Assembly (NCBI RefSeq): GCF_964355755.1
Contig: NC_092676.1
Span: 28,068,288-28,132,287 of the forward strand
Source of the DNA: Antedon mediterranea
Taxonomy: Eukaryota > Echinodermata > Crinoidea > Comatulida > Antedonidae
Direction: 5' to 3'
DNA: 64,000 nucleotides
A program made the translations under genes and the position numbers. The notes below the pieces were generated by a model that was not told the DNA's origin, ran no database searches, and saw only the letters and a list, made by a program, of their open reading frames with translations. This document shows positions 11,944 through 35,220 of the stretch, piece after piece; the stretch's first letter is position 1, and the number at the start of each line of letters is the position of its first letter.

Positions 11944-12294
11944 TTATCTCTGTACGTTTTCCTTTGAAGGCGTTGGCGACACTTGCTTACGTTTCTTGAC
12001 TTTAGTCATGACGATTACACAAGCGATAATGACGATGATGAAAGCGGCTACAATGACAACGCTGACTGCAATGATCGTGGCCGTTGAGGCATCGTCTTCG
12101 TCATCTGTGTAATCATAGACATATATAGATTAGTACAAATAATATACAAAAAATCGGGATTAATGAATACATTAAATATATACCAGTCATGTAAAGCTTA
12201 CCTGCATCCTCCACGTCAAGGTCATTCGTTTCGTCACCACCATTCTCCTCCACTTGTCCTCCGGGTGATTCCGTACCTACAGACGCGTCGTACG
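11944..12294 (-). CDS. REJ gene juxtamembrane, transmembrane helix and tail (two exons)
   Basis: Exon 12202-12294 encodes an acidic, Gly-rich segment (SPGGQVEENGGDETNDLDVE). The last exon (11944-12104) encodes DDEDDASTA, a single helix (TIIAVSVVIVAAFIIVIIAC, then VIVM), a basic KVKKRKQ and the short tail SPTPSKENVQR before TAA. There are no further transmembrane segments and no room for a polycystin channel module, so the product is a type I receptor with an 18-residue tail containing possible phosphorylation sites (SPTPS). Confidence 0.85.
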
Positions 12295-15200
12295 CTAGAA
12301 CATAAAATCGGTGGATGTTGATCATAATTTTTATTTTATTACATCTCACATGATCACAAGATAGCTATATTTTGTTCTTACTGTACTCGAACTGCCTGTT
12401 AGTATAATACTATACATTCTTTCTTTATTTATTCCCATTCATCACGCATAATCATAAATACGAGGCGTGGCCCAGACTAAAACAAACGTTGTTTTAGATA
12501 CTTCATAATTCCATAATCCATAAACTTTGGTTAGTTTGGTGTAAAATCATACATACCTCCGACTGTTCCTCCCCCGGCTGTTCCTCCTCCGACTGTTCCT
12601 CCTCCGACTGTTCCTCCTCCGGCTGTTCCTCCTCCGGCTGTTCCTCCTCCGGCTGTTCCTCCCCCGACTGTTCCTCCTCCGGCTGTTCCTCCCCCGGCTG
12701 TTCCTCCTCCCACTGTTCCTCCTCCCACTGTTCCTGTTACCTGTTCTTCGATGTCTTCAACCGCGACTGTAAACTCAGTCAAGTGTGTAGCCATACAAGT
12801 AACCAGCCGCTTGTCGTCAGAGATGGTCGTCTCAATGCCGTCCTTCTTCCATGTCCATGTATTTTTGTCCATGTACTTGGCTACCGCTCTCTTTCCTTCT
12901 GGTATTTCATCACGGATTGGTATAACGATAGTCACCGGGGTCTCAAGATCGCTAACATCAAGCTCTTCACCTGTTTAATATAGTTAATATTAAATCAAAC
13001 AACATGACAATACGGTACTCTGCCATAATGTCAGTACGGTACTCTGCCATAATGTCAGTACGGTACTCTGCCATAATGTCAGTACGGTACTCTGCCATAA
13101 TGTCAGTACGGTACTCTGCCATAATGTCAGTACGGTACTCTGCCATAATGTCAGTACGGTACTCTGCCATAATGTCAGTACGGGACTCTGCCATAATGTC
13201 AGTACGGTACTCTGCCATAATGTCAGTACGGTACTCTGCCATAATGTCAGTACGATACTCTGCCATAATTTCAGTACGGTACTCTGCCTTAATGTCAGTA
13301 CGGTACTCTGCGATAAAGTCAGTACGGTACTCTGCCATAATGTCAGTATATATCAATTGACATGGTTCGTTTTTCCCACTGTATTGCAAGCAATAAGCAA
13401 ATGTGATCTTAAATCATACATTCTAAACATTGGTGAATTTACAGTAACAGTAACGCAACATACGCCACGTAAGAAAATTCCCTTCCAATAATTGTGTTTT
13501 CCCCCGTCTTCGTCAGTTTCCATTTTTGATTACGCAATACAGCACTTTGCGTCAATACGTCGCTGCGTTGCGTTGCATCGCTAGTGGGAAACACGCTTAA
13601 TGGTAGCCTAGGGCTTTAGATAGTGGGAAACATCAGCGATCAGCGTATGTGTTCTATAAATCCAATTGTGCACACATATTTTAAAACTGTGTATACAACA
13701 AGACCCCACCTGCCATGAGCTATCAAATACGAGACCCTACCTGTCTCCGGATCAGCAAGAGCTACATCAATGACGTCAGCAATAAGTGTCTGTGCGTCTT
13801 CTACACTGACAGATGTATAGTCAATTGTGTACTGCAACATCTTTACGCTCACGTCTGAACAAGTCTTGCCGTCTGCGCATGCCCAGTCTGTACCGTACCT
13901 GAATACGTGAACACAATTTTAATCACAGTTGAGTAACGGCTATGCGCGCTCACATACTAAACCCAGGTGGCCCAGAGCTTATAGGGGCCTCTGAGAAGTT
14001 CATGCCCAGAGAAAAAACAGGCATTAAAATATGTGGAAAATGGCTGAAAACGCCCGAGGCCTCCAGCGTTGGAGGGTTCCCAATCCAAGGGCCTCAGGCC
14101 TCTGCGTTATGCCACTGCATTCTCAATGTGTTTCTATACTGAGGTCACTGACAGAGCTACGATGTTAAAGTTCTATACCTTATCTTTACCACTTGTTTAT
14201 CATCATTACTAAGCCAACTGTCGTCCCATTGTTGTAATTTGTATCATTTATATTTATTATTCTGATTCATGATTATCCCTCTATAAAAAAAAATTTCACT
14301 AATCACTTGCAAGAGGTCTAACTTACTTTTCTCGCAATGCATTACCAAAGTTGACAGAGATAGAACCTTCTCCAGAATGGGATTGCACAGTTTCCGTCAG
14401 TTGTGTCCTCATGATGCTGATTTTACTGTCGCTAGTCTCCTTTTCGAACTTCTCACCGAAAGCTAACCCTCGCAATATTTCCTTAGAAACCGATTGCCGC
14501 GCCAACCTAAAATAAAGAAAGCATTTCTTGGATGTCATTTAAGAGAGTGTATACGTTTCTGCACATTTTGACTCTGACGCTGTATTCAATCCCTGCAGTA
14601 TAGCTTCGTTTAAGCTGCAAATGGATCAATGCACCAAGCTGTATCTTCAAGAAAGATAGTGTGTGATAGATTCAAGTATTTAGAAGATACATGTTGACAT
14701 GCGTTTGTGTGTGGGTTCGTCGTCCACATGTTATACGGTAGTTCATCATTCATCATCGTGTGTTTCTTCACAATCTATCAATTTATTCATACTTACAAAA
14801 CCTGTTCTAATACACACTACACGACATGCCGAAGCGGCCGGCACACTAGATATGATCATGTGTGCAATGTATTGTATACAAAGCTCTGTTTGACAAAAAA
14901 AGTGTGATGTGCACAATTATGGTAGTAATATGACATCATCATGTCCAAATATAGGCGCATCACACTTTATGTTTGAATGTTTATCAGTGTAGACAGAGCT
15001 TAGACTATCAAACTAGTTTGACAAAAAATGTGTGATGTTCCCCAAATATGGTAGGTCTAATGATATGCCCAAATATGGTAGTGACATGACGTCATCATGT
15101 CCATATATGGGCACATCACACTTTTTTGTCACATATAGTTTTATAGTGTGGACAGAGCTTTAGATACCTTACCTAAGCTCATCATTAAGTTTCCAATCTT

Positions 15201-18200
15201 CTCCTTGAGGGTGTATGCCAGATGCTGCCTCGCTCAGACTATCGAACACGTTACGCGCCGTGTCCTTGTCGATTGGTTCGTCATCCGATGATTCGTCAAC
15301 GTTCACAGAAACTAAATCTCGAATGCTTCTTATTGTGTCAACTTAAAAAAATAAAAAAGACAATAAACTCGAGTAAAACCTTTAAATTAAATAGCTTGTT
15401 TATTTACAAGATTCAAAGCGGCCTATTTTTATTCTACAGCTCACTATGTCAGTCGGTTGGTTGGTCGGTCGGTCCGTTGGTCGGTAAACACTAACACAGC
15501 CATCTATATGGCCTTGTTAGACTTGTTATTGTATTTTTGTAGTAATTGCTCTTGTTTATTTTAGTTCGACGTTTCATTTTGTCTAAAAATTTCGTAATTG
15601 TATTATACGTATGAAACGCCATATGTGCAAAACTATTTATCTTTTTATATTGCGGTCTAGAAGCTAGACTATGCACATGCAGTCACAGGGAATGGCAAAA
15701 GGTTTCCTACTTTATAGGATTTTTATCAGATAATATATATTTTATTGCTGATTTTGCCATTTTCCCTCTAACTGCAGGCCTATTTTATTTAAATAAATCT
15801 GGTACTTACGTTTTGAAGTTTTATTCATACACGGGTAAGCCAAATATTTGGTTTGATCTAGAAATGCTTTTCTGTCATTTGAGCCCAGGTTTTCATCAGA
15901 CTGAGCGCGTTTTAACATGTATGCCTGCATTTCACCGTACTCCTGTAGCAGCCTACTGTCGCATGATGATGCTACGTCACGCTTTCTGCGACGGGCGCCG
16001 TCAAAGAAATTCTCTATAAGGGAAGTCAGGCTTATGGTGGCTTTTAAAAGTGCACCTGTAACAAATTAAAAATTAATATTTTATAATAGAAAATACAAAA
16101 AACCAAAAAAAAAAATTTTTTTCAAACCAACAATGTAAAACACTAATATCATGTTGAATATATCGTTTATCTTTATACCTTTATGTCTTGATTTACCTTT
16201 CATTACTTCATTTTCAACATTTATAAAATAATATTCTTGTCCTTCTTCTTCTGACAAAGCTGTCGCTACTGTCGTTATTGGTTTCTTTTTATTTATACAT
16301 TTTTTTCTTGCATCACAAATCTATGTTAAACACAAATATCTACTATTACTAAGCCTGTAGCTTACAGTGCTACTTAGGATAAGAAAACAGCATTGCAATA
16401 CAATTATTTATAATGATCTTTTATATTATTCAACAAGGAGGCGGATCTGTTCGCGCGAATCGATAGCCTAAGCTTATACGCATGCGCAGAGAGGAATTTG
16501 GAAGATGAAAACATGAATACGTATACGTAGGCCCTATAAGCTGACGATTTCGATTCGCGTGAACAAATTTAATTAGCCTAGTGGAAAATCGGCTAATAGG
16601 CAAGACAATATTATAGCAACTACGGTAATAAATAAGACTTTTAAAATTATGTTTATACGCGAAGTTACACCACACAATTTGAATCTAATCTAGTATAAAC
16701 TTTAGGCCTACCTTGACCAAGAGTTTAAAATCCGTTTGACCAGCCACGGCATCAAAACTGGCATCATTGGTAGCTTGTGATATTATACTAGTGTCACTGG
16801 ATGAAGTGTCTTCTATAAGAGCCTGGTAGTTTAGAGGGTAATTGTCCTCATCTGCTACGCAGCCTGTAACGTTAACTAGAAACTGGGGTGCAATTAATTT
16901 GATTTAGTTAACATTTTATACCAACTCAATATAACTAAAGGTCTGTCTACACTATCAAACTAGTTTGACAAAGTGCGATGTGCCCAAATATGGTAATAAT
17001 ATGACATCATCATGTCCATATTATGAGCACATCACATTTTTTTGTCACACACAATTTGATAATGTAGACAGACCTTTAGGCAATGTTAGTTGTAATGGTT
17101 GACTACATATTCACAAAACAAGACTCCATATAATTAAGGCAATATTGGACAATCATAGTATACAATAATTAATAATGAATGTTTATGAGTGCAATGTGGC
17201 AAATAATGTCGTTCCGGTTGATTATTGTGTAACAACATGAATATGTACTCTGACGTCAGAGTTTAATAGTATATGTATATTGGAGATCATGTGACCCATA
17301 ATCCTCCAATCAATAACAAGAATCGGTACAGGTGTATTATAATAGAAGATATGCAACAAAGAAAACAACCCAATTACCCTTTTCTTTGTGATCCTTCTAT
17401 TTTGTCGGACTAAAGCGTGGTTCCCACTAGCGACGCAGCGACGTATCGACGCAAAGTGCTGTATTGCGATGGGGACCCTCCAAAGAAATTGCATTTTATT
17501 TGTCGGGCATTTGTATGATTTGTTTTATTTTTTTGAATGCGCCTTGAGCACTCTTGAGTGGTATGTGCGCTATAAAAATCCTGTTATTATTAGTGGGAAC
17601 CGACAACGCAAATATCGCAAGTTTGATTTCACGCAGGCGGGGGCAAACACAATTATTGGAAGGTTTCGTTATGTTACGTTGCGTCGCTAGTGAGAATAAA
17701 GCGTGGTTCCCACTAGAACGCAACGCAGTGACGTATTGACGCAAAGTGATGTATTGCGTAATCACAAGTGGGAACCGACGACGCAACGGCGTAGGTTTGA
17801 TTTAACGCAGGCGGGGGCAAACACAATTATTGGAAGGGCATTTTCTTACATTGCGTAGGTTGCGTTACGTTGCGTCGCTAGTGGGAACCAAGCTTTAAGC
17901 TGGACTAAATATAACTGTTTAAACTGCCTAACTTTGATGGAGAATGTGTGAACAAGAACACCACCGTCATAAATAAATTATATGTGGCCACGCTCCAACA
18001 CGTTTGGATGTTGACCGATTATAGATATAGGCCTAAAAACTGAATATCAAAAACATACCTTAAAGGGTGGGTTGACTTCGTCTTGCGCTGTTATTTCACA
18101 GTTTCGGATACCTCTGTTTGTCTTGATCTCAATTGTACTGGTTCCCGTACGTCCATCTTGTGACGATGCTGTAAACTTTATCAAATATTTTGCGTCTTCT

Positions 18201-21200
18201 GCAACAACACCTTTAAAACAGTATTTTGATTACTGATAATTAACTATTTTAATTATATGACTTTTTATAATGCATACTGTGGACCAAATGGAATATAAAG
18301 TCAGACATTGATTCGTTAAGTATTAACCGATTCTTTAATCCACAGAGTTTAATCTAAGTTGACAAAACCCAATGGTATGTGCGCTAAAGTGTGGTTCCCA
18401 CGAGAACTCAACGTAACGCAGCGACGTATCGACGCAAAGTGCTGTATTGCGTAATCACAAGTGAGAACCGACGACGCAACAGTGCTGCAAACATCGCTTC
18501 GATCACATCGGTTTGATTTCAGGAGGCGGGGGCAAACACAATTATTGGAAGGGCATTTTCTTATGTTGCGTAGGTTGCGTTACGTTGCGTCGCTAGTGAG
18601 AACCACGCTTAAGCCTAATTTGCACTGCTTTTGTAATCGGTAAAATTGGGTCTCCAAGACTTTTGCCAGACTTTTGAGGTTAATTATAAGATACTGCTTT
18701 TGGTATAGGATCTATAAAATAATAGTAAATAAAAGAAAGAGGGATAGACCTCATTCGAGATGGAGGGATAAGCTCGTCCTGAGACAGACCAGGGATGCTC
18801 CCTGAGACAGACTGGCACCACAGCATGGCCAAGATTGGCGAAAGACAACTGGCACCCGTTAAGAGAGGAGGCCTTTGCTTAATAGTGGGACGATATGGGC
18901 TGAAGAGAGAAAGCTAGTAATAGTAAATTTATGTATTTACCAGGTTTCAAATTCAAGTGCACTGTACTACATCTTTGTGTGCTGCTAATTTTTGGCGGTA
19001 CTCGAAAGTTTTTCGGATCTTCAAGATCCATGAATCCATACGCTGTGAATGTAGACAATAATATTATATTGTTAATATTTCATTTTATAACTGTCCATCT
19101 TGGGTACCTATTAATGTCACACTGTAAACGTGATTTATTTTTGAACAAACAAAGTTTTAACATTGAATCACATTGGCCTGCCTCGCTATTTTGGAGTGTG
19201 TTTTAATGTCACTACCGTATAGTGTCTTTAAATACCGTACAATGTATTTGTTATCGCTCTAGTGTAAATGGATGTTTACACTCACCGTCTTCGCCGGATA
19301 CATCGGTTTCCCACGTAAAGTTAGATATTGTCAAGTCGCCACGAATTTTTGCTTTAATGTCAATGTTATCTTGAATGCTGTACACGCCGTCATCATTTTT
19401 CATTAGTATTAGATCAACCTAATTTAAAATTTACAACATGGAAATAGTTTACACCGATGTGATGATAATTTCAAGAAGGCAATTCCTGTTTTTGTGCAGA
19501 TTACATAATAATAATAATAATAATAAGATTTTTATAGCGCACATACCACTCCAGAGTGCTCAAGGCGCATTTAAAAATAAAAAAGAAATAAATCATACAA
19601 ATTCCTGACAAATTACACTCATAAATCTAAGTTGTTAAGCTTATTTCTGACTACAGGACAAACGCAATGTAAGCTAGTCGACCAATCAATCACAAGCGAT
19701 GGATTATTCACTAAAGCCTGTTTTCCTGTCGACGTTATTCGACGCTATTGTTAACAAAAATCGGCGATCTTCTACGTAAACATTGAAATTTTTACGATTT
19801 ACAGGAAAGGGTACTTTTTTAACTAACGACGACGATACAAAATGTCGGCGATTTACAGGAAAAGGTGTAATAATCGACGGTAACCGACGCTACAAGTCGC
19901 GATCGTTGACAATCGCAAGAGTTGAATCCAGTTCAACTCTAGCGATATCGCAACGCTTAAACGTAAGAACTGACCAATCATCATGGCGATACAGCACATG
20001 ACGTCCCATAATTGATGGCAAATTCTGCTGACTACATTTTATTTTTGTTGCATCGCGGCGCGGTCAAAGCTAGGACTAGCCTTACCAAAGTTACTATAAA
20101 ATGATGTTCCGGAAAGTAGGCGCGTGGATATTAGGTAGGTCAAAGTTCTCAGCCTAGTCCAACATACAATTTGGACTAGGATAGGCCTACTGAGAACGAA
20201 GAACCATCAGTATAGAGATATTAGTATGCCTAGGCCCACGTCTCTTACACTGTGAGCCTACTGCTAGAGGCAGGGGAGTCCTCTATTCATTTTTGCGCGT
20301 TACGACGACGTCGAGAAAGAAAACAGGCTTTAAGTAAACTCTAGAAATCAAATGTTCGCGCTATCGTTAACATTTCAACTTGATCGTTTTCAAACGATGG
20401 TCGTTGAACTTTTAACGATTAACGATGATAGCGTCGACTAACGTCGACAGGAAAACAGGCTTTATTGGTCAACTCACTTGCGTCGCGTCTACGTCATCGC
20501 GTTGCGTCCTAGTGGGAACCAAGCTTTACATACAACAATGTAATATGCTTTTCTTATGGTACATTCACAGTTGTTCAGTTTCATGGAATGGAAGAAGGTG
20601 CCTTTCTATTCTTTATACAATTTTCCATTATTAAAACAAAATGGTGACGTCTTCCGTTAAAACAGTGCTATGTGTAGTTTTATAGTCTGAAGGTACGGTA
20701 ATTCTCGTATAGGAAAAACAATAATGACGTTGAGCCGAAACCGCTCCGTCTTTTACCTTTAAGAGATCGTCTTCTGAGCAGGATCTTGTAACGTTAGTAG
20801 AGTGAAACCTTGAACCCTTCTGGACGATCAGTGTGAAGGTATATTCCACTCCAGGTGTCATCTGTTCTGAATAGAACCTTATTGTGCTGTTAGACCTTTG
20901 TTCATTAGACGGGAATTCGATGTTATTTTCACCTTCACGGTAAGAAAAACACGGTCTACTGTCTATTGTCTGTAGAAAATAGAGAAGAGTAAACAAAAAC
21001 AACAGAAACAAATCGATTTTTGACAAAGTGAATAACCCGAATTTACATAAACATGGTCTACCTCTTAAGCGTGGTTCCCACTAGCGACGCAACGCAAGGA
21101 CGTAACGCAACGAAAGTGAATTGACCAATCACAAGCGATGGCTTATTCGCTTGTGATTGCTAACTGTCTATAACTTCGCTTTTCATTGGTCAAAACGCTT

Positions 21201-24200: not shown

Positions 24201-27200
24201 CAAGAGAATAATTATTGTTAATGTTGTACTTCTGTATATATCAATATTAAAATCATGAACGGTGCGAATATTCAATGTAAACGATTAACTACCACATACT
24301 AATAAGGGCTAATTTACACAGACGAGCGGTAACGGTAACACACATATAGAATGTATGTTTCTTATGACCATTTACACAAAGCGTGGAGCAGACAGACGGA
24401 CAAGCTACACGTTTTTCCCCTTACCGTTATCGCTCGTCTGTGTAAATTGGCCTTAATACTAATAGAGCATTTCAATCCACATACGCTCGTCCATAGCAAC
24501 CATCATGTAAGCATCAATGTCAACATCATCCTTCCCCCTCCCCCACTTGCACTTACCACCTCGCACTATGAGCTTTGGCACCAGCCCATCATAATCATTA
24601 AGGCGGGCACCACTTTCTAGCGTAACTTGGAGTTCAAATTCCAGCGAGCGACCCTTTATGGCATCGAATTCTCTGGGTTCAACTGATACTACAGTTGGCG
24701 CTGATGAATTAAGAATAAAAATACAAAAATGAGTATCAACAGTTATGAAAAAATGAAATAAATTATGTAAAAATGAAAACCCCCAGCCCTATACGTTGAT
24801 AAATATTAAACTAAGCAGTTTTATAGTTGTGGAAAGTGTAGAAAAGTTTCAAATCATGAATTATGCATAAACGACTCACGATATCTCATGAATAATTCAT
24901 GATTTAATATATTTCTAAACAAATTATTGAATTTGAAATTGAAAGTAGTAGTAAACAATATGTGGTGTACGCAGAGTCATAATACGTGATCGCACATATT
25001 CATAATTATAAAATTTTTTATTAATTGGGTTAAGGCAGAAATGAATGAATAATTCACCTCATTATAGGAGAAAAAATAATGCGCCCAGGCTCAAGAAATA
25101 ATATTGACTTACGTTCATACACTGATATGGTAATCGGTTCTGTGCCATTTATTTCATCACCATCTCTGCTTATAACAGCAACGTCATAAACGTCTAAAAA
25201 ATAGTTTATATTGTTAAATACAATTTGTTTAATTTAAGAAATGTCCGTTTTCGGCAATATATACCGCTCCGATTTTTAGACTCGACTACAAAATAAGACA
25301 ATTACCTTGTTCAAGAGTTTCTCCTTCTGACGACTGGCACGTGACGGCAGTATTCGTTACGTCAGTCACTGGCCATTCGACGATGACGTCATTTGAAGTT
25401 GTCGACGAGAGCATACAATTAGTTATTTCGTTACGGCGAACGTTCCGAGAAACGCGTACATTACTACTATCGAATCCAGCGCCGTGTATAGTAATCTAAT
25501 AAAAACATAACTAAAAAAATAACTTAACTTAAAATATAGTTTAAATAACGATAATAATAAGCAGTGAATATAATAACAAAAATATAATAATTGATAAATA
25601 ACATAATACTATTAAAGTTATTATATTATTAAAAATTAATTTGATACGATGGTTTCTAATAGGACGCACACAAGGAGCATTTCAGATGATTCGTTTCTTG
25701 AGATTGGTCAAATTACTTGCGTCACGTCAGAGGCAAGGAAAGAGTGCAATTATTATTACTTAAGCGTGGTTCCAACTAGCGACGCAACGCAAGGACGTAA
25801 CGCAACGCAAGTGAATTGACCAATCACAAGCGATGGCTTATTCGCTTGTGATTGCTAACTGTCTATAACTTCGCTTGTCATTGATTAAAACGCTTGCGTT
25901 GCGTTTACGTCCTTGCGTTACGTTATAGTGGGAATCAAGCTTTACAGGTAATAATATTAACATAAACATTTTATATATAATGTATACGTTCAAACATATT
26001 TTATACAAAAGAAACGTCCATGTTATCTCCATGGTAAATAACAAATGTTTTTGTAATAAAATGGTAAATCGATTAATATTCACAATAGGTATAATATGCA
26101 CAAAGCTATCGATCGATCGATCATGTTAAATAAGGCCATCCGTTGTAATGGATTTTCTAAAGAATAAATTACCGGTGTTCACGTTCAATATGTACATACT
26201 TGGTCTTGTTTGGCTGTTTAAACCATGAAGGTCGATTTTAAAGCGTGGTTCTCACTAGCGACGCAACGTAACGCAATCGACGCAATGTAAGAAAATGCCC
26301 TTCCAATAATTGTGTCTGCGTGAAATTAAACCTACGAAGTTTGCAGAACTATTGTGTCGTCGGTTCCCATTCGTGATTACGCAATACAGCACGTTGCGTA
26401 GGTTGTGTTACGTTCCCCCGCTATGTGGGAACCACGCTTTAGAACAAAATTAGATAAAACTTCCAATGGAAAGTTAGTACCTGTTGTGTTCCTGAGTTAG
26501 GTAGCAGTGCTGGTTCCACGGACTTAATAACTTGACAACTCGATCCATCGCCATCACATATGCCACATGCATCTTCGACAAGGCCACTACAACATTACCC
26601 AAAGACAGTAATATATATGTATACAAATTTAGAAAATAATTAATTAATAAAAGTGGTTTAATTTTGATAAAGGCGCTATAGAAATAATAATGTTAATTCT
26701 AATGTTAATATTTAGCCTAAAATTCTTGCGATTGTTATTATTTGGACAGATATAGGCCTAAGTTTATTTTATATTTTAACTGATAATTGTGGAGATATAC
26801 TTTTTTAAAGCCTTGTCTACACTATTAAACTATGTGATGACAAAAAAATGTGATGTTCCCATATATGGACATGATGATGTCATATCACTACCATATTTGG
26901 GAATATCACTACCATATTTGGGCACGTCAGGTTTTTTTCAAACTTGTTTGTAATTACCCCGCGGACAACTACCTCTGACACAACACAATACTCCCCGTAG
27001 GACAACTACCTCCTGGACCTGGACAATACTCCGAGGGCAAATAATCTTTTAGGACAACTACCTCCGTAGGACAACTAACCCCTGAACAACTACCACCCAG
27101 ACAACTATCCCTTTAGAACAACTACCCCCCCCCCCCGGACGGACAACTACCACCCAGACCATTCAACAACCTGACTCTGCAACAGTGTATAATAGGAATT

Positions 27201-30200
27201 AATAACTATATTTTAATTCGTTACTTTGACGAATTACTATTCATTATTGTAAACAAAAGTAAAAGATTGAACATAAATATAGTCCTAAGGGAGGGGGTAG
27301 TTATCCGAGGGGTAGTTGACTGGGGGTAGTTGACCGGGGGGTAGTTGACCGGGGGGTAGTTATCCTAAGGGGGGGGGGTAGTTGTCCTAAGGGGGTAGTT
27401 GTCCGGGGGTTGTTATCCTAAGGGGTAGTTGTCCTAAGGGGGTAGTTGTCCGGGGAGTAGTTTTCCGGGGGGTAGTTGTCCGGTTGGTAAACATCCGGGG
27501 GGTAACTGTCTAGGGGGTAGGTGTCCTAAACCCTTTCATGTAATTCTAGGATAATTGGATCTGAATTTAAAAAGAAAATTGTCGACTGGTCGGGAGGCTG
27601 GGGGTAGGCCTAATATTACATATTCGACTCAACTAAAACATGTCTCGCTCCAGGTTTACAGTTAATCGTCTTATTGTACTATACTAACCTGTTTGGAACA
27701 TTATCACAACCGTTACACTTGGTTTTTTCTTCTTCTGGAGCGTTGAGGCATACGCCGCATTCGTTTTTCACCGGTTCACCTCTAACAACGCAGATACCAC
27801 ACTCTTTGTCGATACGAGCTCTGTTACGACCTAAAACAATAGAAAACATTGAAAATTCAGATAATGTCAATTTTCCTGTTTGAAATATTTTTGTTGAGTC
27901 AAAATTGGGGTTTTTTCAATTTCGGTTATCTGATAAGTTATCCGTCGGTTTCTAAAACTTGGTGGCCTCATTTGGACGCAACGAAACGACGTAGGAGCAA
28001 GAACACCAGTGATTTAATCTATCGCGTCGTGATTGGTCAAATTCTAAAGCTTGGTTCCCACTAGAACGTAACGCAAGGACGTAAACGCAACGCAAGCGTT
28101 TTAACCAATGACAAGCGAAGTTATAGACAGTTAGCAATCACAAGCGGATAAGCCATAGCTTGTGATTGGTCAATTCACTTGCGTTGCGTTACGTCCTTGC
28201 GTTGCGTCACTAGTGGGAACCACGCTTTAGCGTTGCGCTTACGTCCTTGCGTTGCGTGGGAGCCAAGATTTAGGCTACTAATATAATAGTGTCAATTACT
28301 CACCGTTTGTACAAGCCCCATTACAATCGGCGGCGGAAGGAATGATACCATCAGGCCCTACTCTCACGCAATCGCCGCAATCGTTTTCACCATAGGAAAA
28401 TGTTCCTTCAAGTTCGCAGACTCCTTTGCAATTGATACGATGACTGTTCTTATCTACCGCCAGTCCAGTCTCTCCACCTTAAACAACAAAAGGATATGCT
28501 TTTACATATTAAGGCCTTGTCTACACTACCAGACAAAAAAACACCTAACCCTTACCCACATATGGACATGTCATATCACTACCATATTTGGGAATATCAC
28601 ACATTTTTTGTCAAACTACAGTAGTTTGATAGTGTAGACGAGCTAAACAATCGTTCCCGAAACCCAAATTACCGTAAACGTATAATATAACTATAACTTG
28701 TGCTTACCGACACACTCTCCACATTTGTCTGACCTGGCATTTCCATTACAAGTTCCGTGACAATCTTTAGTCGTGTGCATAATTATTGTATCTGTACCGG
28801 ATACTTGGCATTCACCACAGCTGTCCTTGCCTGCGTCCCGTCCTCGATTAGTGTTACCACCAACACACAGTTCACAGTCGTTTAACACCGCTGTACCACC
28901 ACAGTCACCATTACAGTCAGTTTCTACATCACATTCTGAAAAACACACATTAATTGGAAAATGTTATTTGATACGATGACTGGTAAAGTAAAAGTGGAAT
29001 GAGTTCACAATCGTTATTAATGGTTTATTAATAATTTAATGAGAGTTTAATTATGATGTTGGAGAATAAAAGTATGTTTGTATTTAATTGTAAAATAAAC
29101 TATGTGAAAAATAGATAAATATATTGTAAACAAAATATGTTAAGTTATGTGTTAAGAGTTAATAATGAAAAGGAAATGAAAAAAAAAACAATGTTAATAG
29201 GATAAATAGGCCTATAAGAAAATATTTATGAAACAAATGTGTTAACTAGAAAAAACATTGTTAAGAAAGTATATTTTAAAGCACAGTATATAAGCTAAAC
29301 TATGTTTGTAAACATATTAGTTAAGTCGAAGATGCTTTCCAGATGGAATGCCATCCTGAGATGAGTAGTAGTAATTTTGTTTATTTTATTTATTTCATTT
29401 ATATGTAATTTACTTTCTATGGACCAGAGTTTCCGAAATAAAAGATTGAATGAATGAATTAAAAACACAATTGAAAAGTTAGAATATGTAAAATGCTGTT
29501 CTACAGTACATAACTATGATAAGAGAAATGTACAGTACAGTTATATATGAAAATAAAAGTGGGTTGAAAAAAAAAATACTTAAAAAATATTTCTGGACAT
29601 CTGGACGTCATGTAAATGTTTATTTGTTTTGGACTGTTTACAAATTTAAATTATCGCACAATTATCTCACCACCCAATCATGAGTATTTGAGTACTTATC
29701 TTTTAAGCAAGGTAATTTTATTTACCTTTACATCGTTTTCATAATTTGTTGAGTATTATCGACGTCATAAAAATACATTAATGTATTTTTACGGCTGAAG
29801 TTGCGAAGGTATTGAAGGCGGGCGAGGCAACTGGCCCCATGACACCAGGCGGCAGTCCTCTAACAATTCAAGCCGCTACCACATCCTTGACTGTGGATAA
29901 TGCCAGGCTCAGCCATTGGACGCGTCTGTAAACGATCTCTTTGAAGGTGAGCCGTCTCGGGACGACATAACAATGACTGACTCGATTGCTTTGGGCAGTA
30001 ATGTGCCACTATCGGTTAAAAATAAAATATGGGCAAATGGATACATTGACCTCAGGACTCTGATCAATAACGACAATGATGAATGCTATACCAGCGAACG
30101 CGAATTCTTTGCTTTACGCCTAGATGCAAGTTTGTACGATGTCAAGTATTATTCACGCGGAGCATTGTCGTCATTTCGTCATAAAAATACATTAATGTAC

Positions 30201-33200
30201 TTTTAACATGAACAAGTCGCGTGCGCAAATGAAGTTTATCATAGGCCAGCTATCCATGCCGATTGCATATATCTTAATCCACTCTCGATTCTTCTAATAT
30301 GTTAAGAACACTAATAATAATTGGTATTTCAATACCAATTTCCCGACGTCATAGTAACGTATTATTATATCTGACAAAAACTTGAGAATGACAATAGTTA
30401 ACCAAATGGCGTTGCTTAGCATCGCAATAAACACGTATATTCTAACCATTTTAACATAATTATGTATCTATATTGTAAACTTATAATATTGAATACAAAA
30501 TGACAGCCAGCTGTCAAACTAGAAAGATCGATTTTTGTTATCAATTTAAAGGTGTATTGTCGTCCTGAAAAAGAATAATTACTGAAAAAGTTGCTGGTGA
30601 ATAGGCCATTTTAATGTCACATAGTTGGTTTGTATCTTACTGAAAATGTCTGTTGTTGTCAAACTAGAAAGATCGATTTAATTATCAATTTAAAGGTGTC
30701 TTGTCGTAAAAGAATAATTACTGAACAACCATTTTAATGTCAATAATAGTTAGTTAATTTGATTTATCCTTTTTTCATGTTTTGAAGAACAATACAATTT
30801 TAATGTTTAATATCTTTGATATTATATTGGAGGGAAATATTTTATAATATGGAATTTCTTTTAGGAAAATATTTCTTGTGGTAGAGTTTTACTTTTACAA
30901 TTGAAAATCAAATATAGAGTGACAAAAAAATCACGAAAAACAGGGCGACGGTTTAAAGCAACACAACTCTATGGAGCGCCAACGCAGCAAAAGTATCATG
31001 CTAAAATAGTGTAACTTTTAAAATACACCTCTAATTTCATAAAAAGCACAGCGTAATTGTTAAAATACAAGTGTAAATTTTAAAATAACAGAGAAGTAGT
31101 AACATGCAATTGAATATTATAGCCAAACATGTGAGCATCTTTTATAATGATAACTTACAATAATATTTACTCTGGTACTAATAACTAAACACATTTTAGA
31201 ATGTGAATTACAAACAACATGAAAATATGATCTCGGAAATATACCCATTTTTAAAAGCATTGTTGAAACTATAAACTAAGTTTTTAATTAGTTGTTTTGT
31301 TTTACCTTCTTTAATGGGCCGTCGACCGCGGATAATTCTCGTTTCGTCTATGGATCCACCGGGTTCTCTATGGGTCGTGGGCTGTTGGGTTGTTCGCCGT
31401 CCGCCTCCAGTTTCGTCTTTGGAACCATCATGGCCGGGCTGTTTTGTTGTTCGCCGTCCGCCTCCAATTTCGTCTTTGGATCCACCGTGTTCTCTTTGGG
31501 TGGGCTGTTGTGTTGTTGACTGTCCGCGTCTTATAGTTTCGTCTTTGGAGCCACCGTGTTCTCTATCATGAGTGGGCTGTTGTGTTGTTTGCCGACCACC
31601 TTGAGTTTCGTCTTTGGAACCATCATGGGTGGGCTGTTGTGTTGTTCGCCGTTGGCCTCCAGTTTCGTCTTTCAAGCCTTCGTGTTCTCTGTCATGGGCA
31701 GGCTGTTCTGTTTGTCGGCCGTCCTCGTCACTTTCCTCATCTTTCATACCTTCATCTTTGCCGCCAGTACTATCATCCACAGCTCGTGTTGTTGGCAGAC
31801 GATCCGCGGGACTAGGATCTTTAGACTTCACAAATATAATATTTATCCAGATGACAAGGCAACATACACACGCTACCTTGAAATTTGAGATAGGCATTAT
31901 TCCTAATAATAAATAGGCCTACATACAGTACAAGAACGAGCATCCGCGATAACGGTTGCCTAATATTTGACTGCCGATATAGCAAATAAATTGCATCACT
32001 AAAAACCGAAATGTATGCCTTTTTTGATTGGTTAACTATACATAATAATACGCCAAAGCAGCCAATCACAATTATACTTTGTTGTCAATTATTTATAAAT
32101 GTATTCTTTAGTTAAAAAACGATCTATATATCTTTGTAATTGATGTAATGATTGTTATAACGTTACATAGTTCTATTTAAACGTAATGAATGCATAAGGT
32201 AACATTACCTCCACCAATGAGGTAATGTTTGCGTGTGTATTTTTGTCAGAATAACGTCAAAACTAAAGCGTGGTTCCCAGCGACGCAACTTAACGCAATC
32301 TACGCAACGTAAGCAAATGCCTTTCTAAAAGGCGTGGTTCCCACTAGGACGTAACGCAAGGACGTAAACGCAACGCAAGCGTGTTGACCAATAACAAGCG
32401 ACAGTTCGAACAATCCATCGCTCGTGATTGGTCAAATCACTTACGTTGCGTTACGTCCTTGTGTTGCGTCTCTAGTGGAAACCAAGCATAAAGCTTATTT
32501 CCCACTAGAACGTAACGCAAGGACGTAAACGCAACGCAAGTGTTTTAACCAATGACAAGCAAAGTTATAGACAGTTAGCAATCACAAGCGAATAAGCCAT
32601 CGCTTGTGATTGGTCAATTCACTTGCGTTGCGTTACGTCCTTGCGTTGCGTCGCTAGTAGGAACCACGCTTAATAATTGTGTTTGCCCCGGCATGCGTCG
32701 GTTCCCACTTGTGATTACGCAATACAGCACTTTGCATCGTTACGTTCTTGTGGGAACCACGCTTAAAAGACGGATCAACTACAAATAGATATGGTCACGG
32801 AAGATTCTATTGAATGTTGGAGGCAATGATATAACAATAAACAAAATATATTACATTAGGCAAACCCTATTTGATTTTGGCCTACACATTAGTTCGGTAT
32901 TTCAAACAATAAATTTAAAAACGGAGCTTAATATTTTTTTATTTTGGAGGAGGTCAGTATATGTAATCTCCCATTGCTTGTTGTATCTATTATTATCAAT
33001 AGAATAATTACTAATAATTATTGGTAAAATCAATAAATATTGTATCATAAATAACGACAACCTGATACGACACGTATGATGACGTCACTAAGTTATTATT
33101 TCTTAAATAATTTATTAAAAAACCTAGTATATAGTTAATTCAATGGGTTCGCACTTACCCGATATTTGCCTTTCTGTAGGATTTCTTCCACCAATTGATG

Positions 33201-35220
33201 GGCGTCCTCTCGACGGTGGGGTATCGCCATCGCTTCCACTGTTGCCAGATTGACCACCGGGTTGACCACCTGATGAGCCTCCGCCACCAGGTTGACCACC
33301 TGTTGAGCCTCCGCCACCAGGTTGACGATCTGTTGAGCCTCCGCCACCGGGTTGGCCATCTGTTGAGCCTCCGCCACCGGGTTGACCACCTGTTGAGCCT
33401 CCGCCACCAGGTTGACCACCTGTTGAGCCACCGCCACCAGGTTGACCACCTGTTGAGCCTCCGCCACCAGGTTGACCTCCTGTTGAGCCTCCGCCACCAG
33501 GTTGACGATCTGTTGAGCCTCCGCCACCGGGTTGGCCACCTGTTGAGCCTCCGCCACCAGGTTGACCTCCTGTTGAGCCCCCGCCACCAGGTTGGCCACC
33601 TGTTGAGCCTCCACCGCCAGGTTGACCACCCGATGAGCCTCCGCCACCAGGTTGACGATCTGTTGTGCCTCCGCCACCGGGTTGGCCACCTGTTGAGCCC
33701 TCACCGCCAGGTTGACCACCTGTTGAGCCTCCACCGCCAGGTTGACCACCCGATGAGCCTTCGCCACCAGGTTGACGATCTGTTGAGCCTCCGGCACCGG
33801 GTTGGCCACCTGTTGAGCCCCCACCGCCAGGTTGACCACCCGATGAGCCTCCGCCACCAGGTTGACGATCTGTTGAGCCTCCGCCGCCGGGTTGACCACC
33901 TGTTGAGCCTCCGCCACCGGGTTGACCAGCTGTTGAGCCTCCGCCACCAGGTTGACTACCTGTTGAGCCTCCGCCACCAGGTTGACCACCTGTTAAGCCT
34001 CCGCCACCAGGTTGACCACCTGTTGAGCCTCCGCCACCAGGTTGACGATCTGTTGAGCCTCCGCCACCAGGTTGACGATCTGTTGAGCCTCCGCCACCGG
34101 GTTGGCCACCTGTTGAGCCTCCACCGCCAGGTTGACCACCCGATGAGCCTCCACCACCAGGTTGGCCACCTGTTGAGCCTCCGCCGCCAGGTTGACGATC
34201 TGTTGAATCTCCGCCACCAGGTTGACGATCTGTTGAGCCACCGGGTTGGCCACCCGTTGAGCCTCCACCGCCAGGTTGACCACCCGATGAGCCTCCGCCA
34301 CCAGGTTGGCCACCTGTTGAGCCTCCGCCGCCAGGTTGACGATCTGTTGAATCTCCGCCACCATGTTGACGATCTGTTGAACCTCCGCCACCGGGTTGAC
34401 GATCTGTTGAGCCTCCGCCACCGGGTTGGCCACCTGTTGAGCCTCCGCCACCAGGTTGGCCACCTGTTGAGCCTCCGCCACCAGGTTGACGATCTGTTGA
34501 GCCTCCGCCGCCGGGTTGACCACCTGTTGAACCTCCATCAGCTCTTCTATCGTCACCACTTGATGGGCCTTGGCCATCAGGTTGTCCACCACTACTCCGA
34601 TCACCATCAGTTTCCCTATCCGAGGATCCTGCAAATAAAGGAATTATATGATACTAACAATTATTTTAAGATATTCGGTCTTTTAAATACAATGTAAACC
34701 AGGAGAATGCTTTAACACAAATCATGATTGTGACTATGTTAGTAATGATAGCAGTAGTGATCATGATTGTGACTATGTTAGTAGTGATAGCAGTAATGAT
34801 CATGATTGTGACTATGTTAGTAATGATAGCAGTAATGATCATGATTGTGACTATGTTAGTAATGATAGCAGTAATGATCATGATTGTGACTATGTTAGTA
34901 ATGATAGCAGTAATGATCATGATTGTGACTATGTTATTAATGATAGCAGTAATGATCATGATTGTGACTATGTTAGTAATGATAGCAGTAATGATCATGA
35001 TTGTGACTATGTTAGTAATGATAGCAGTAATGATCTACCGTATCGAACCAGAATAACAAGTTGTGTTGATGATATATACAATATACTAAGACGTCATGAA
35101 AAAAATATTTTATAAAATTCAGTTTTACGTACCTGGTGCTTGTCCTACTATTAGCGTTGAGCAGAAACAAATAAAAAGAATAAAAAATCCAAGACGAACA
35201 GACATATTTAACTCCATCAT
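11944..35220 (-). CDS. REJ-domain single-pass receptor (polycystin-1/suREJ-related), complete or nearly so
   Basis: A minus-strand gene with 25 phase-consistent common exons: 28708-28935, 28304-28477, 27689-27830, 26481-26586, 25306-25495, 25113-25193, 24557-24700, 23892-24143, 23251-23418, 22675-22959, 22353-22560, 21594-21987, 20757-20969, 19286-19418, 18941-19042, 18059-18210, 16712-16882, 16197-16320, 15810-16055, 15173-15341, 14327-14506, 13741-13898, 12557-12970, 12202-12294, 11944-12104. Upstream lie two alternative or serial N-terminal blocks (33159-35220 and 31306-31897). With the nearer signal exon the protein is 1759 aa. Order: signal peptide, low-complexity repeats, Cys-rich modules, IPT-like region, REJ module, furin-like site, GAIN/GPS-like region, GGGT stalk, one helix, 18-residue tail. 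REJ proteins include sperm receptors for egg jelly in sea urchins and polycystin-1. The single helix resembles suREJ1 rather than polycystin-1. Ligand and role here are unknown. Confidence 0.85.
12557..16320 (-). CDS. REJ gene furin-like site and GAIN/GPS-like region (six exons)
   Basis: Exons 16197-16320, 15810-16055, 15173-15341, 14327-14506, 13741-13898 and 12557-12970. Exon 15810-16055 carries GARRRKRDVASS, a strong furin-type basic site. Later exons are helical then beta-rich, as in GAIN domains (LTETVQSHSGEGSISVNFG, VSVKMLQYTIDY, TPVTIVIPIRDE). The end resembles a GPS: NTWTWKKDGIETTISDDKRL, then TCMATHLTEFTVAVED. The His-Leu-Thr of the autoproteolysis site is present, but the usual cysteine pairs are mostly missing (CMATH instead of CxCxH). 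It is followed by 11-12 GGGT(V/A) pentapeptides. Known GAIN receptors self-cleave between Leu and Thr; whether this one does is open. Confidence 0.75.
12566..12735. repeat. 15-bp coding minisatellite (GGGT stalk)
   Basis: About 11-12 copies of a 15-bp unit (TGTTCCTCCTCCGAC type) inside a REJ-gene exon. On the coding strand they read GGGTV or GGGTA, in frame. Between the GPS-like region and the membrane this would form a flexible stalk whose length could vary between alleles. Confidence 0.93.
13005..13345. repeat. 24-bp intronic minisatellite
   Basis: About 14 copies of a 24-bp unit (TCAGTACGGTACTCTGCCAT plus AATG) lie in the intron immediately upstream, in transcript sense, of exon 12557-12970. 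Since 24 is a multiple of three, both strands show long repetitive ORFs; neither is part of a gene model. Confidence 0.95.
13441..13600. mobile_element. Family 2b MITE, left end degraded
   Basis: The right end is GCTAGTGGGAAACACGCTTAA, and the interior matches other 2b copies (AATAATTGTGTTT, GATTACGCAATACAGCACTT). Intronic to the REJ gene. Confidence 0.75.
13931..14117. mobile_element. GTGGCGTTACG-family element, three copies in window
   Basis: Related copies lie at 13931-14117, 23563-23710 and 48691-48836. They share termini of the type CAGTGGCGTTACGG and TACGCCACTG, with GCTCACTGGCTAAAC and GGCCTCAGGC-like interiors. Short inverted termini and the lack of coding capacity fit a non-autonomous DNA transposon. 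Superfamily not assigned. Confidence 0.7.
14881..15160. mobile_element. Two abutting family 1 MITEs
   Basis: A shorter copy (14881-15000) is followed directly by a fuller one (15001-15160), sharing the AGCTTAGACTATC junction. The second ends a few bases from the donor of exon 15173-15341. Confidence 0.82.
15680..15774. mobile_element. CAGTTAGGGGGAAAATGG-family MITE, degraded copy
   Basis: It ends ATTGCTGATTTTGCCATTTT followed by CCCTCTAACTG; the left end (CAGTCACAGGGAATGGCAAA) is a weaker inverse. The better copy is at 62689-62810. Confidence 0.65.
16712..22959 (-). CDS. REJ module (eight exons)
   Basis: Exons 22675-22959, 22353-22560, 21594-21987, 20757-20969, 19286-19418, 18941-19042, 18059-18210 and 16712-16882 encode about 550 residues with REJ hallmarks: KGLELRGDKSRGTG followed by LKYLWFIR, a second half with EVMLDGSGSKDPDKDDLEMV then YTWTCEQ, YTFTLIVQKGS, AKYLIKFTASSQDGRTGTST with EIKTN, and GCVADEDNYPLNYQ. 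The pattern of Gly/Ser-rich L-x-G-S followed by a Trp strand is typical of the receptor-for-egg-jelly domain. An RGD tripeptide sits in the first unit. Exon 18059-18210 has an alternative in-phase acceptor at 18198 that would remove four residues. Introns here hold most of the family 2 elements. Confidence 0.82.
16936..17078. mobile_element. Family 1 MITE in REJ gene intron
   Basis: Inverted ends AAAGGTCTGTCTACACTATC and GATAATGTAGACAGACCTTT with the family core. The terminal change is compensated on both sides (GGTCTG/CAGACC), so the hairpin is preserved. Confidence 0.85.
17411..17897. mobile_element. Two tandem family 2b MITEs, first interrupted by another repeat
   Basis: Both copies begin AAGCGTGGTTCCCACTAG and share CAGGCGGGGGCAAACACAAT and ATTGGAAGG; the second ends CTAGTGGGAACCAAGCTTTA. 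The first is split at about 17473-17592 by a sequence (GCGCCTTGAGCACTCTTGAG, GGTATGTGCGCTATAAAAAT) that occurs in reverse orientation at 19518-19610. Confidence 0.82.
18385..18612. mobile_element. Family 2b MITE
   Basis: It has the termini AAAGTGTGGTTCCCACGAG and CTAGTGAGAACCACGCTTA and the same interior as the pair at 17.4-17.9 kb. The words before it (AATGGTATGTGCG) resemble the edge of the repeat inserted in that pair. Confidence 0.8.
18739..18905 (+). mobile_element. LINE ORF2 C-terminal fragment
   Basis: Plus-strand translation gives fragments such as SRWRDKLV, DWHHSMAKIGERQLAPVKRG and LIVGRYG, with interruptions. This resembles the C-terminal tail of non-LTR retrotransposon polyproteins (the RPxxRWxD...W...A.DR...W pattern). 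It is a short relic in an intron of the REJ gene. Confidence 0.5.
19636..20528. mobile_element. Family 2a MITE split by a nested TIR element
   Basis: Left part 19636-19711 (AAGCTTATTTCTGACTACAG, then CAATCACAAGCGATGGATTA) and right part 20465-20528 (TTGGTCAACTCACTTGCGTC, then CTAGTGGGAACCAAGCTTTA) are the two halves of a family 2a element. The 753-bp insert between them has its own inverted termini. Confidence 0.75.
19712..20464. mobile_element. 753-bp TIR element (TAAAGCCTGTTTTCCTGTCG)
   Basis: Perfect terminal inverted repeats of about 23 bases (TAAAGCCTGTTTTCCTGTCG at 19712 and CGACAGGAAAACAGGCTTTA ending at 20464). Subterminal words such as TTCGACGCTATTGTTAAC and GTTAACATTTC/AACGATTAACGATGATAGCG form further inverse pairs. 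No coding capacity is visible. Likely a non-autonomous DNA transposon. Confidence 0.82.
21066..21249. mobile_element. Family 2a MITE, well-preserved copy
   Basis: Near-complete foldback element: AAGCGTGGTTCCCACTAGCG at the left and TAGTGGGAACCAAGCTTTA at the right. Its inner arms include ACGCAACGCAAGGACGTAAC and CAATCACAAGCGATGGCTTA with its inverse TTCGCTTGTGATTG. Other 2a copies: 21314-21509, 25761-25944, 28045-28229 and the two inside 32264-32765. All lie within the REJ gene. Confidence 0.88.
21314..21509. mobile_element. Family 2a MITE with internal duplications
   Basis: Termini AAGCTTGGTTCCCACTAGGA and GTGGGAACCAAGCTTTA. The left arm contains three copies of AAGCGCAACGCAAAGACAT-like units, so this copy has expanded internally. 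Confidence 0.82.
22051..22150. repeat. Dispersed repeat GCTCAAGTATTATACGTATG
   Basis: The same word string (CAAGTATTATACGTATGAAA, then CGCCATATGTGTCAAAATAT, then GTCTATAGA) also occurs at 6451-6530 and 15597-15670. Three diverged copies of one repeat family; ends not defined. Confidence 0.65.
23251..24700 (-). CDS. REJ gene linker region of unknown fold (three exons)
   Basis: Exons 24557-24700, 23892-24143 and 23251-23418 encode about 188 residues between the IPT-like and REJ regions. Beta-rich alternating hydrophobic patterns (PTVVSVEPREF, LEFELQVTLESG, FRVTVYTVGPKL, LKVRFDKKVENV, CTLIFEDS) suggest further Ig-like domains. I do not recognise them. The donor at 23892 (GTTGGT) is weaker than the others but is the only one that keeps the frame. 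Confidence 0.7.
25113..25495 (-). CDS. REJ gene IPT/TIG-like region (two exons)
   Basis: Exons 25306-25495 and 25113-25193 encode a stretch starting ITIHGAGFDSSNVRVS, with NCMLSSTTSNDVIVEWPV and TAVTCQSSEGE and ending ITISVYE. The opening (I-x-I-x-G-x-G-F) and the paired cysteines resemble IPT/TIG immunoglobulin-like folds found in cell-surface receptors including some REJ/fibrocystin relatives. The match is by eye only. Confidence 0.6.
25761..25944. mobile_element. Family 2a MITE
   Basis: Nearly identical over its length to the copy at 21066-21249, apart from terminal changes (TTCCAACTAG, GGGAATCAAGC). Confidence 0.85.
26239..26441. mobile_element. Family 2b MITE in inverse order
   Basis: Termini AAAGCGTGGTTCTCACTAG and GTGGGAACCACGCTTTA. 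The interior reads GCCCTTCCAATAATTGTGTC and GATTACGCAATACAGCAC, the reverse complement of the copies near 17.8 kb. Confidence 0.8.
26481..28935 (-). CDS. REJ gene Cys-rich modules (four exons)
   Basis: Exons 28708-28935, 28304-28477, 27689-27830 and 26481-26586 encode about 216 residues dominated by short disulfide-rich units: DCNGDCGGTAVLNDCELC, KDSCGEC, DKCGECVG, ENDCGDC, KECGIC, NECGVC and ACGICDGDGSSC. Such DCxGxCGG...DxCGxCxGG units occur in several secreted animal proteins and resemble calcium-binding thrombospondin-like repeats, but no exact domain is claimed. Splice phases run 1-1-1-2-0. The intron 26587-27688 contains two complementary minisatellites and a family 1 element. Confidence 0.82.
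26806..26950. mobile_element. Family 1 MITE, right end damaged
   Basis: It begins AAAGCCTTGTCTACACTATT and carries the inverse-order core (GGACATGATGATGTCATATC, ACCATATTTGGGCA), but the right terminus degrades at about 26940 against the adjoining minisatellite. Confidence 0.75.
26958..27530. repeat. Two complementary minisatellites forming a long inverted repeat
   Basis: 26958-27165 is built from GGACAACTACCNCC-like units; 27288-27530 is built from the complementary GGGGTAGTTGTCC units. They are separated by about 120 bases of ordinary AT-rich DNA. Runs of nine or more C or G occur in both arms. The region sits in the intron between REJ exons 27689-27830 and 26481-26586. Confidence 0.88.
28045..28273. 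mobile_element. Family 2a MITE with trailing fragment
   Basis: A full copy (28045-28229) is followed by a partial right end (28230-28273, GCGTTGCGCTTACGTCCTTG then GGAGCCAAGATTTA) and preceded at about 27960-28044 by a degraded half. Three pieces of the same family lie side by side. Confidence 0.8.
28511..28646. mobile_element. Family 1 MITE
   Basis: AAGGCCTTGTCTACACTACC at the left and GATAGTGTAGACGAGCT at the right, just 34 bases from the REJ-gene exon start at 28477. Confidence 0.8.
28980..31200. other. Long AT-rich intron of the REJ gene
   Basis: Apart from the direct-repeat-flanked ORF at 29763-30207, this 2.2 kb holds AT-rich sequence with no family recognised. A short duplicated phrase occurs at 30515-30560 and 30658-30705 (AAACTAGAAAGATCGATTT, then ATCAATTTAAAGGTGT). 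Confidence 0.5.
29763..30207 (+). mobile_element. Direct-repeat-flanked element with transposon-like ORF
   Basis: Two direct repeats of about 30 bases (CGTCATAAAAATACATTAAT at 29763 and 30177, each itself palindromic around ATTAAT) bound a region with an open frame from about 29890 to 30206. Its product includes PLDASVNDLFEGEPSRDDIT and then PLSVKNKIWANGYIDLRTL. The motif S-V-K-x-K-I-W-x-x-x-Y-I-D-L resembles ORFs found beside tyrosine-recombinase retroelements (DIRS/Ngaro-like) in invertebrates, as I remember them. There is no recombinase or reverse transcriptase in the element, so it would be a non-autonomous remnant. Confidence 0.5.
31306..31897 (-). CDS. REJ gene N-terminal block B: second signal-peptide exon with KDE/TTQQP repeats
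   Basis: This exon begins with a textbook signal peptide from the ATG at 31897 (MPISNFKVACVCCLVIWINI, then IFVKSKDP). It continues with about six imperfect repeats of roughly 20-24 residues built from GSKDETGGG, RRTTQQP and THDREHG. The donor (GAAG then GTAAAA) leaves phase 1, matching the acceptor at 28935. An acceptor-like TTATTATTAG ends at 31903, and using it would keep phase 1 from exon 33159, so an internal-exon reading is possible but would bury a hydrophobic segment. I favour an alternative first exon. The repeat is highly charged and probably disordered. Confidence 0.72.
32264..32765. mobile_element. Family 2b MITE carrying two family 2a MITEs
   Basis: Outer 2b ends: AAAGCGTGGTTCCCAGCGAC (32264) and TGTGGGAACCACGCTTA (ending 32765). 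Its centre is interrupted at the CTTTCTAA/AATAATTGTG point by two consecutive 2a elements, 32326-32489 and 32489-32672, each with GGTTCCCACTAG-type and CTAGT(A/G)GGAACCA-type ends. Confidence 0.8.
33159..35220 (-). CDS. REJ gene N-terminal block A: signal exon plus Gly-rich decapeptide exon
   Basis: Exon 35133-35220 encodes a signal peptide (MMELNMSVRLGFFILFICFC, then STLIVGQAP; a second Met at 35205). It ends in phase 1 and joins exon 34628-33159, exactly 490 codons. After an acidic/Ser-rich lead the exon is about 43 copies of a 30-bp unit translating as GGGSTGGQPG with variants (TDRQPG, SDEGQPG-like changes). It closes with a Ser/Arg-rich segment ending TERQISG and a GTAAGT donor in phase 1. 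The correct frame is open throughout despite a 6-base deletion in one unit; the longer ATG-initiated ORFs on both strands here are other frames. The sequence is expected to be an extended, flexible extracellular region. Whether it is spliced to 31306-31897 or directly to 28708-28935 cannot be told, since all three joins are in phase. Confidence 0.75.
33240..34530. repeat. 30-bp coding minisatellite, about 43 units
   Basis: Unit close to CCACCAGGTTGACCACCTGT followed by TGAGCCTCCG. It falls entirely in one REJ-gene exon. Variant units (GACGATC, TGGCCACC, CGATGAGCC) recur in higher-order blocks, a sign of past unequal exchange. Variation in copy number would change the protein by ten residues per unit. 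Confidence 0.95.
34722..35036. repeat. 39-bp intronic minisatellite
   Basis: Eight copies of a 39-bp unit (TGATTGTGACTATGTTAGTA, then ATGATAGCAGTAATGATCA) in the intron between the signal exon and the Gly-rich exon. Both strands stay open through it only because 39 is a multiple of three. Confidence 0.95.

Follow-up and report, generated by a model that had tools for sequence, protein, structure and literature searches.

One of two sister REJ genes in the crinoid Antedon mediterranea, apparently intact, single-pass and probably of the SpREJ8/SpREJ9 kind, may encode a cleaved adhesion tether or co-receptor

Whether a chain of exons spread over 23 kb of a crinoid contig makes up a single REJ-type receptor, and what such a receptor might do, is the question raised by a 64,000-nucleotide stretch of the Antedon mediterranea genome (NC_092676.1, positions 28,068,288 to 28,132,287 of the forward strand; this whole stretch is hereafter the window, and position 1 is its first letter). 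The initial annotation had read here 25 in-phase exons leading from a signal peptide to one transmembrane helix, and had suggested a gamete-surface receptor. We favor a different reading, to which we give a probability of about 0.6: the locus is an open, apparently intact gene for a single-pass REJ/polycystin-1 protein of the type of SpREJ8 and SpREJ9, it has one sister in the genome, and its product is a putative cleaved adhesion tether or co-receptor.

Manual splicing of the minus strand from 35220 to 11944 gave 28 coding exons (6,723 nt) that encode 2,240 aa with 0 internal stops, with GT-AG borders, picked by hand, at all introns. The chain itself and the coordinates of its start and stop thus stood as annotated, but the number of exons had to be raised from 25 to 28. 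Hydropathy peaks above 1.2 over 19 residues occurred only at the signal-like N-terminus and around residue 2201, that is, the protein has one membrane helix, followed by a tail of ~20 residues, and has neither 11 helices with a channel end nor a seven-helix domain.

All parts of the protein described below are encoded on the minus strand. Exon 1 (35133-35220) carries the ATG and a signal-like peptide, MMELNMSVRLGFFILFICFCSTLIVGQAPG, with a best 12-residue Kyte-Doolittle mean of 2.87. Exon 2 (33159-34628) encodes a Gly/Ser-rich head of tandem QPGGGGSTGG/QPGGGGSTDR units, corresponding to a 30-bp array at 33254-34536 in which TRF counted 43 copies, and exon 3 (31306-31818) adds charged repeats of the KDETGG...TTQQPTHDR type, with a frame that stays open on the upstream side as far as a competing ATG at 31897. 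In the spliced model, Cys-rich CGxC modules, 48% identical to those of the sister gene, follow in exons 4-7 (26481-28935), and then an IPT/TIG-like domain in exons 8-9 (25113-25495) and ectodomain that we could assign to no domain in exons 10-14 (22353-24700), where exons 13-14 show a weak, sub-threshold similarity to REJ (13.8 bits). The REJ domain occupies exons 15-20 (16712-21987). Exons 21-25 (13741-16284), delimited by the spliced model and by alignment to the sister gene, contain a linker, a polybasic site and a GAIN-like region; the polybasic site is the furin-like RRRKR in exon 22 (residues 1789-1793, 15979-15993). Exon 26 (12557-12970) encodes the GPS, with its predicted autocleavage tripeptide HLT (residues 2081-2083, 12777-12785), and a (V/A)GGGT stalk that coincides with a 15-bp array at 12556-12735. 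In the spliced model an acidic juxtamembrane linker in exon 27 (12202-12294) leads to exon 28 (11944-12104), which holds the single transmembrane helix indicated by hydropathy, a short basic tail and the stop codon. The domain order read previously, from Gly/Ser-rich repeats through CGxC, IPT-like, REJ, RRRKR, GPS and GGGT stalk to the helix, was reproduced in the spliced protein.

The REJ assignment is firm. When the region that begins with the first CGxC module and ends with the GPS was compared with Pfam, REJ scored 134.4 bits (cut-off 25, E=5.7e-39) at residues ~1355-1722, the best stretch covering profile positions 1-373 of 452, and the open frame of exon 15 alone scored 64 bits. The residues 725-1270 originally given for this domain follow another numbering. 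The earlier claim of a single-helix receptor of REJ type whose domain order departs from that of polycystin-1 is supported. The flanking assignments are weak as far as IPT and GAIN are concerned: TIG reached 17 bits (cut-off 20.9), no Pfam GAIN model matched the window protein, and a profile built from the window gene and its sister found only weak PDB matches to the GAIN/GPS part of ADGRG1 (E 0.02) and ADGRG6 (E 0.06), at exon 26. The CGxC modules matched no Pfam family; in a PDB search the last of them, in exon 7, resembled the CGVCGGDGSSC motif of ADAMTS proteins (E 0.058). Structure predictions of single exons were uninformative, with pLDDT values of 39.5 for exon 26 (80 aa) and 46.8 for exon 15 (131 aa).

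The GPS of the window gene scored 18.6 to 19.8 bits, under the Pfam cut-off of 22.5, and was absent among the matches listed in a genome-wide GPS search (150 of 180 candidates scored), in which the GPS of the sister gene was listed. It is without three of the four disulfide cysteines of what we take to be the usual GPS pattern. For these reasons the window GPS may not cleave. The earlier description of this GPS as degenerate fits the missing cysteines, but the protein retains HLT, the tripeptide at which a GPS is usually cleaved, and in the sister gene the GPS, with HLS, is above the cut-off.

Most decisive was the outcome of searching the genome for the protein body, which brought up a single collinear relative, a gene of 28 exons (25 of body and 3 of head) and 2,699 aa at C10:5,014,077-5,034,044. 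Its body runs in the same order, with Cys-rich CGxC modules, an IPT-like domain, REJ, a polybasic site, a GPS with HLS and one helix, and is 31% identical to that of the window gene over 1,401 aligned positions; of the 47 cysteines that the window gene has in its aligned body, the sister shares 37. The sister REJ is nearly complete (203.7 bits, profile positions 5-430 of 452), its GPS scores 30.3 bits, its RRRRR stands at the alignment place of the window RRRKR, and the tail behind its one helix is longer than that of the window protein. Polybasic site and GPS are thus co-placed in both genes, which gives two concrete predicted cleavage sites. Among the best candidates scored, neither of the two proteins brought up a further collinear locus; the other matches were weak and single and fell in REJ or in the last CGxC motif.

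The two genes also agree in their introns. Of 24 introns in the window body, 18 lie in the same phase and in the identical alignment column in the sister, and 23 within 15 columns, as against maxima of 3 and 12, respectively, in 20,000 trials of random placement; because the structure of the window gene guided our manual choice of the C10 splice sites, the agreement in phase is only partly independent. In exon 2, the 30-bp array has the substitution pattern of coding sequence. Among 38 of its 40 units (those of 24 nt and 60 nt were left out), 49 differences from the consensus were silent and 37 were replacements, and the nonsyn/syn ratio was 0.34 in the reading frame compared with 1.93 and 0.94 when the frame was shifted on that strand. 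The collinear sister body, the intron agreement and this silent-site bias together place the chain beyond chance, and, apart from the link between exons 2 and 3, we regard the exon chain of the window gene as confirmed.

The two heads, by contrast with the bodies, appear unrelated. The sister head (three exons, 1,113 aa, G000:C10:5029384-5034044) contains two copies of a ~190-residue Cys-bearing module with 30% identity to each other. Three pieces of this head gave no Pfam match, and a genome search with its third exon alone recovered no sequence other than that exon and the duplicate within it. We detected no similarity between the heads, either when the sister head was searched against the window with the low-complexity filter on or when the window head was searched against the sister region with the filter off or on; nothing meaningful was found for exons 1-3 in Pfam. 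Unrelated heads on one body suggest how this branch of REJ genes can diversify.

The link between exons 1-2 and exon 3 was drawn from splice-site quality and phase only. Exons 1-2 could instead be optional or independent: with another promoter, at exon 3, the gene would yield a receptor without the Gly/Ser array, or the two exons would belong to another transcript. The ATG at 31897, in the frame of exon 3, does open a signal-like peptide of its own whose hydrophobicity (2.80) is close to that of exon 1 (2.87), and the unrelated sister head lends exons 1-2 no support. However, the phase-1 donor of exon 2 and the usable phase-1 acceptor of exon 3 scored 7.9 and 7.6 in a leave-one-out evaluation, within the range of the other sites, and the frame of exon 2, if unspliced, would stop 13 codons past the donor. 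A low-complexity head is also present in SpREJ9 (PMC1934368). We consider a separate first part rather unlikely and retain the chain of 28 exons.

What sets these two genes apart within the genome is seen from a census of the family, in which the Pfam REJ profile gave 28 matches that we grouped into 12 loci (weak profile matches may be missed). In eight of the 12, matches to PLAT and PKD_channel follow downstream in the same orientation. At C1:4.29 Mb only PLAT was matched, and the locus at C2:9.41 Mb has neither, but is followed by long frames with, by eye, several hydrophobic stretches. The window and C10 loci are the two without any sign of PLAT, channel or multiple helices: PLAT is absent from the spliced window protein, none of the 38 genome matches to PLAT lies near the window gene on C7 or anywhere on C10, and none of the 21 matches to PKD_channel lies at the window locus. 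The pair therefore presents the anatomy of channel-less REJ genes, with CGxC and IPT-like modules upstream of REJ.

The closest described match to this pair, by architecture, is SpREJ8/SpREJ9 of the sea urchin Strongylocentrotus purpuratus (accessions EF216328 and EF203419; PMC1934368), and the claim that the window gene stands apart from known REJ proteins is not supported. Both have one predicted helix, a GPS and a partial REJ (347 and 319 residues) and no C-type lectin domain; their exons number 30 and 29, and in SpREJ9 the N-terminal part includes a Ser-rich region (PMC1934368). The same text states PLAT for five of the ten SpREJs, which it does not name, and SpREJ8 and SpREJ9 are presumably without it. 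They resemble the window pair, by published architecture, in the one helix, in being two genes similar to each other and in exon number; the GPS, sub-threshold in the window gene, is a further point of likeness. Differences are also evident. At 3,274 and 2,965 aa, SpREJ8 and SpREJ9 are longer than the window protein (2,240) and its sister (2,699), and their REJ is described as partial, whereas that of the sister is nearly complete. Upstream of REJ no domain was recognized in them, unlike the CGxC modules and weak IPT of the window pair, and their upstream portions are reported to be alike, unlike the heads of our two genes (PMC1934368). The unrelated heads and the nearly complete sister REJ speak against a straightforward one-to-one correspondence. 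Our literature search for SpREJ8 and SpREJ9 found nothing relevant beyond that paper.

We also compared peptides encoded by the published primers for SpREJ1-10 with the window and sister proteins, in 42 pair-frame-target tests with 500 shuffles each. The best result, equaled in 11 of 500 shuffles, is expected once in ~42 tests and is therefore at chance level; it paired CEQTDDN/ATVDTTS of SpREJ9 with CLQVDEN/WTTDTKT of the sister at nearly the published spacing. At the REJ site aligned to the SpREJ9 primer peptide, the window protein reads CEQT.

Other known proteins share less with the window gene. suREJ1/SpREJ1 has REJ, GPS and one helix in common with it, but its 1,450 aa include EGF and C-type lectin domains, which were not found in the window protein, and it is highly expressed only in testis. 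Polycystin-1 and SpREJ3-6 likewise have REJ and then GPS, but also 11 helices, a channel-like end and PLAT (the SpREJ carriers of PLAT being unnamed), not found in the window gene. Adhesion GPCRs resemble the pair in having an HL[T/S] GPS before a membrane helix and in the weak ADGRG1/ADGRG6 profile match, but they have seven helices and the window gene has one. The likeness to the Cys-rich/spacer junction of ADAMTS proteins is limited to ~30 residues of exon 7, and no protease domain was found.

Taken with the polycystin-1 literature, these features led us to propose a cleaved, extensible tether. In hPKD1, REJ is required for GPS cleavage and unfolds stepwise under force (discussion of PMC1934368, citing others). 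The proposal combines this force-extensibility with the matching positions of the two predicted cut sites in a pair of genes that have diverged, and with the lack of channel or signaling domains; a role as tether or co-receptor is suggested because the protein has no channel and almost no tail. The window protein would reach the cell surface, furin would cut it at RRRKR, and the GPS would cut itself between the Leu and Thr of HLT. The long ectodomain (disordered head, Cys-rich modules, IPT and REJ) would then be held non-covalently by a short stub consisting of the GGGT stalk, one helix and the small basic tail. Such a molecule could serve in adhesion, as a tether that can be extended, or as a co-receptor that may stand next to a channel-bearing polycystin of the same genome, or its ectodomain might be shed. 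For the window protein we infer both cleavages, the tethering, the partners and the tissue.

The suggestion that REJ plus repeats points to a gamete-surface receptor is possible but, in our view, unlikely. The protein would sit on sperm (or egg) and read the coat of the partner, as SpREJ1 and SpREJ3 are thought to do, and its repeat head would evolve fast. It has the REJ domain, comes from an echinoderm genome with a bindin gene, and includes a 43-copy coding minisatellite, for which length variation is to be expected. SpREJ1-4 belong to the sperm membrane, and since SpREJ6 is the sole SpREJ called weak in testis, SpREJ8 and SpREJ9 are expressed there too (PMC1934368). A REJ-GPS gene of Ectocarpus male gametes is also reported to be under positive selection in the accessible part of PMC4700764. 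However, expression of most SpREJ genes can be measured in adult tissues, and in embryos (22 h and 65 h) the SpREJ8 and SpREJ9 transcripts are the most abundant of the ten (PMC1934368). Lectin, EGF and channel domains were not found in three scanned pieces that cover the whole model except the stalk; for C-type lectin and EGF, Pfam gave no match up to E=5 in residues 1-690, in residues 691-2098 or in the last 84 residues. Minisatellites are common across the window, introns included, so that repeats alone are no mark of a gamete gene, and a repeat-laden REJ protein need not be a gamete receptor.

In a more novel reading, the pair might stand for a type of cleaved, single-pass REJ receptor in echinoderms that combines one conserved ectodomain body with interchangeable, unrelated heads; the head would set ligand or reach, and its length, varying between individuals, could permit individual- or species-specific recognition; we regard this as speculative and improbable. 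Least likely of all is a surface protein associated with skeleton, cuticle or body-wall matrix whose Gly/Ser/Gln/Pro-rich head binds mineral or matrix, because, although repetitive proteins are common in skeletal proteomes (PMC5460417, in part) and a coral REJ protein was found in one, that coral protein is multi-pass with PLAT (PMC4890752, in part), the sister gene has no such repeat, and the term 'REJ' has a count of zero in the available text of a Patiria skeletal paper.

Several further features were observed in the window. A small single-pass gene on the plus strand (7334-10421), recognized by eye and with a signal-like start, lies tail-to-tail with the REJ gene. It has two similar exons of ~28 aa (8261-8344 and 9266-9349) inside a ~1 kb tandem duplication, and a helix exon with a KKRR tail (10198-10421). 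The idea that the membrane exon had been duplicated between this last exon and the convergent REJ gene was dropped (BLASTP E=32). What we take to be the RNF141-like start of a RING-finger gene lies at 3480-3590 on the plus strand, a MINDY deubiquitinase gene at 38984-39277 on the same strand, and a Rab-like GTPase gene at 49341-49938 on the minus strand. Introns of the REJ gene hold minisatellites at 13004-13348 (24-bp units), 27293-27526 (~15-bp) and 34721-35035 (39-bp). Window introns (for example at 17700-17900, 21070-21250 and 32270-32760) contain numerous copies of a short element whose ends read GTGGTTCCCACTAG...CGCAACGCAA, and of another that carries CCCAAATATGGTAGTGATATGAC; both look MITE-like by eye.

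Elsewhere in the genome, the bindin locus (G000:C1:15552813-15555145) was matched at E=2.3e-28, and the frame upstream in this locus encodes a very long repeat rich in Lys and Arg (KKNRRKNKNRKRNRKQRKRN...); to our knowledge, bindin is known only from echinoderms. The genome-wide GPS search also revealed dense clusters of GPS-motif exons at C9:18.6-19.0 Mb and C7:2.28-2.32 Mb. In the C7 cluster 10 of 11 copies have identical scores, and it looks like a recent tandem array.
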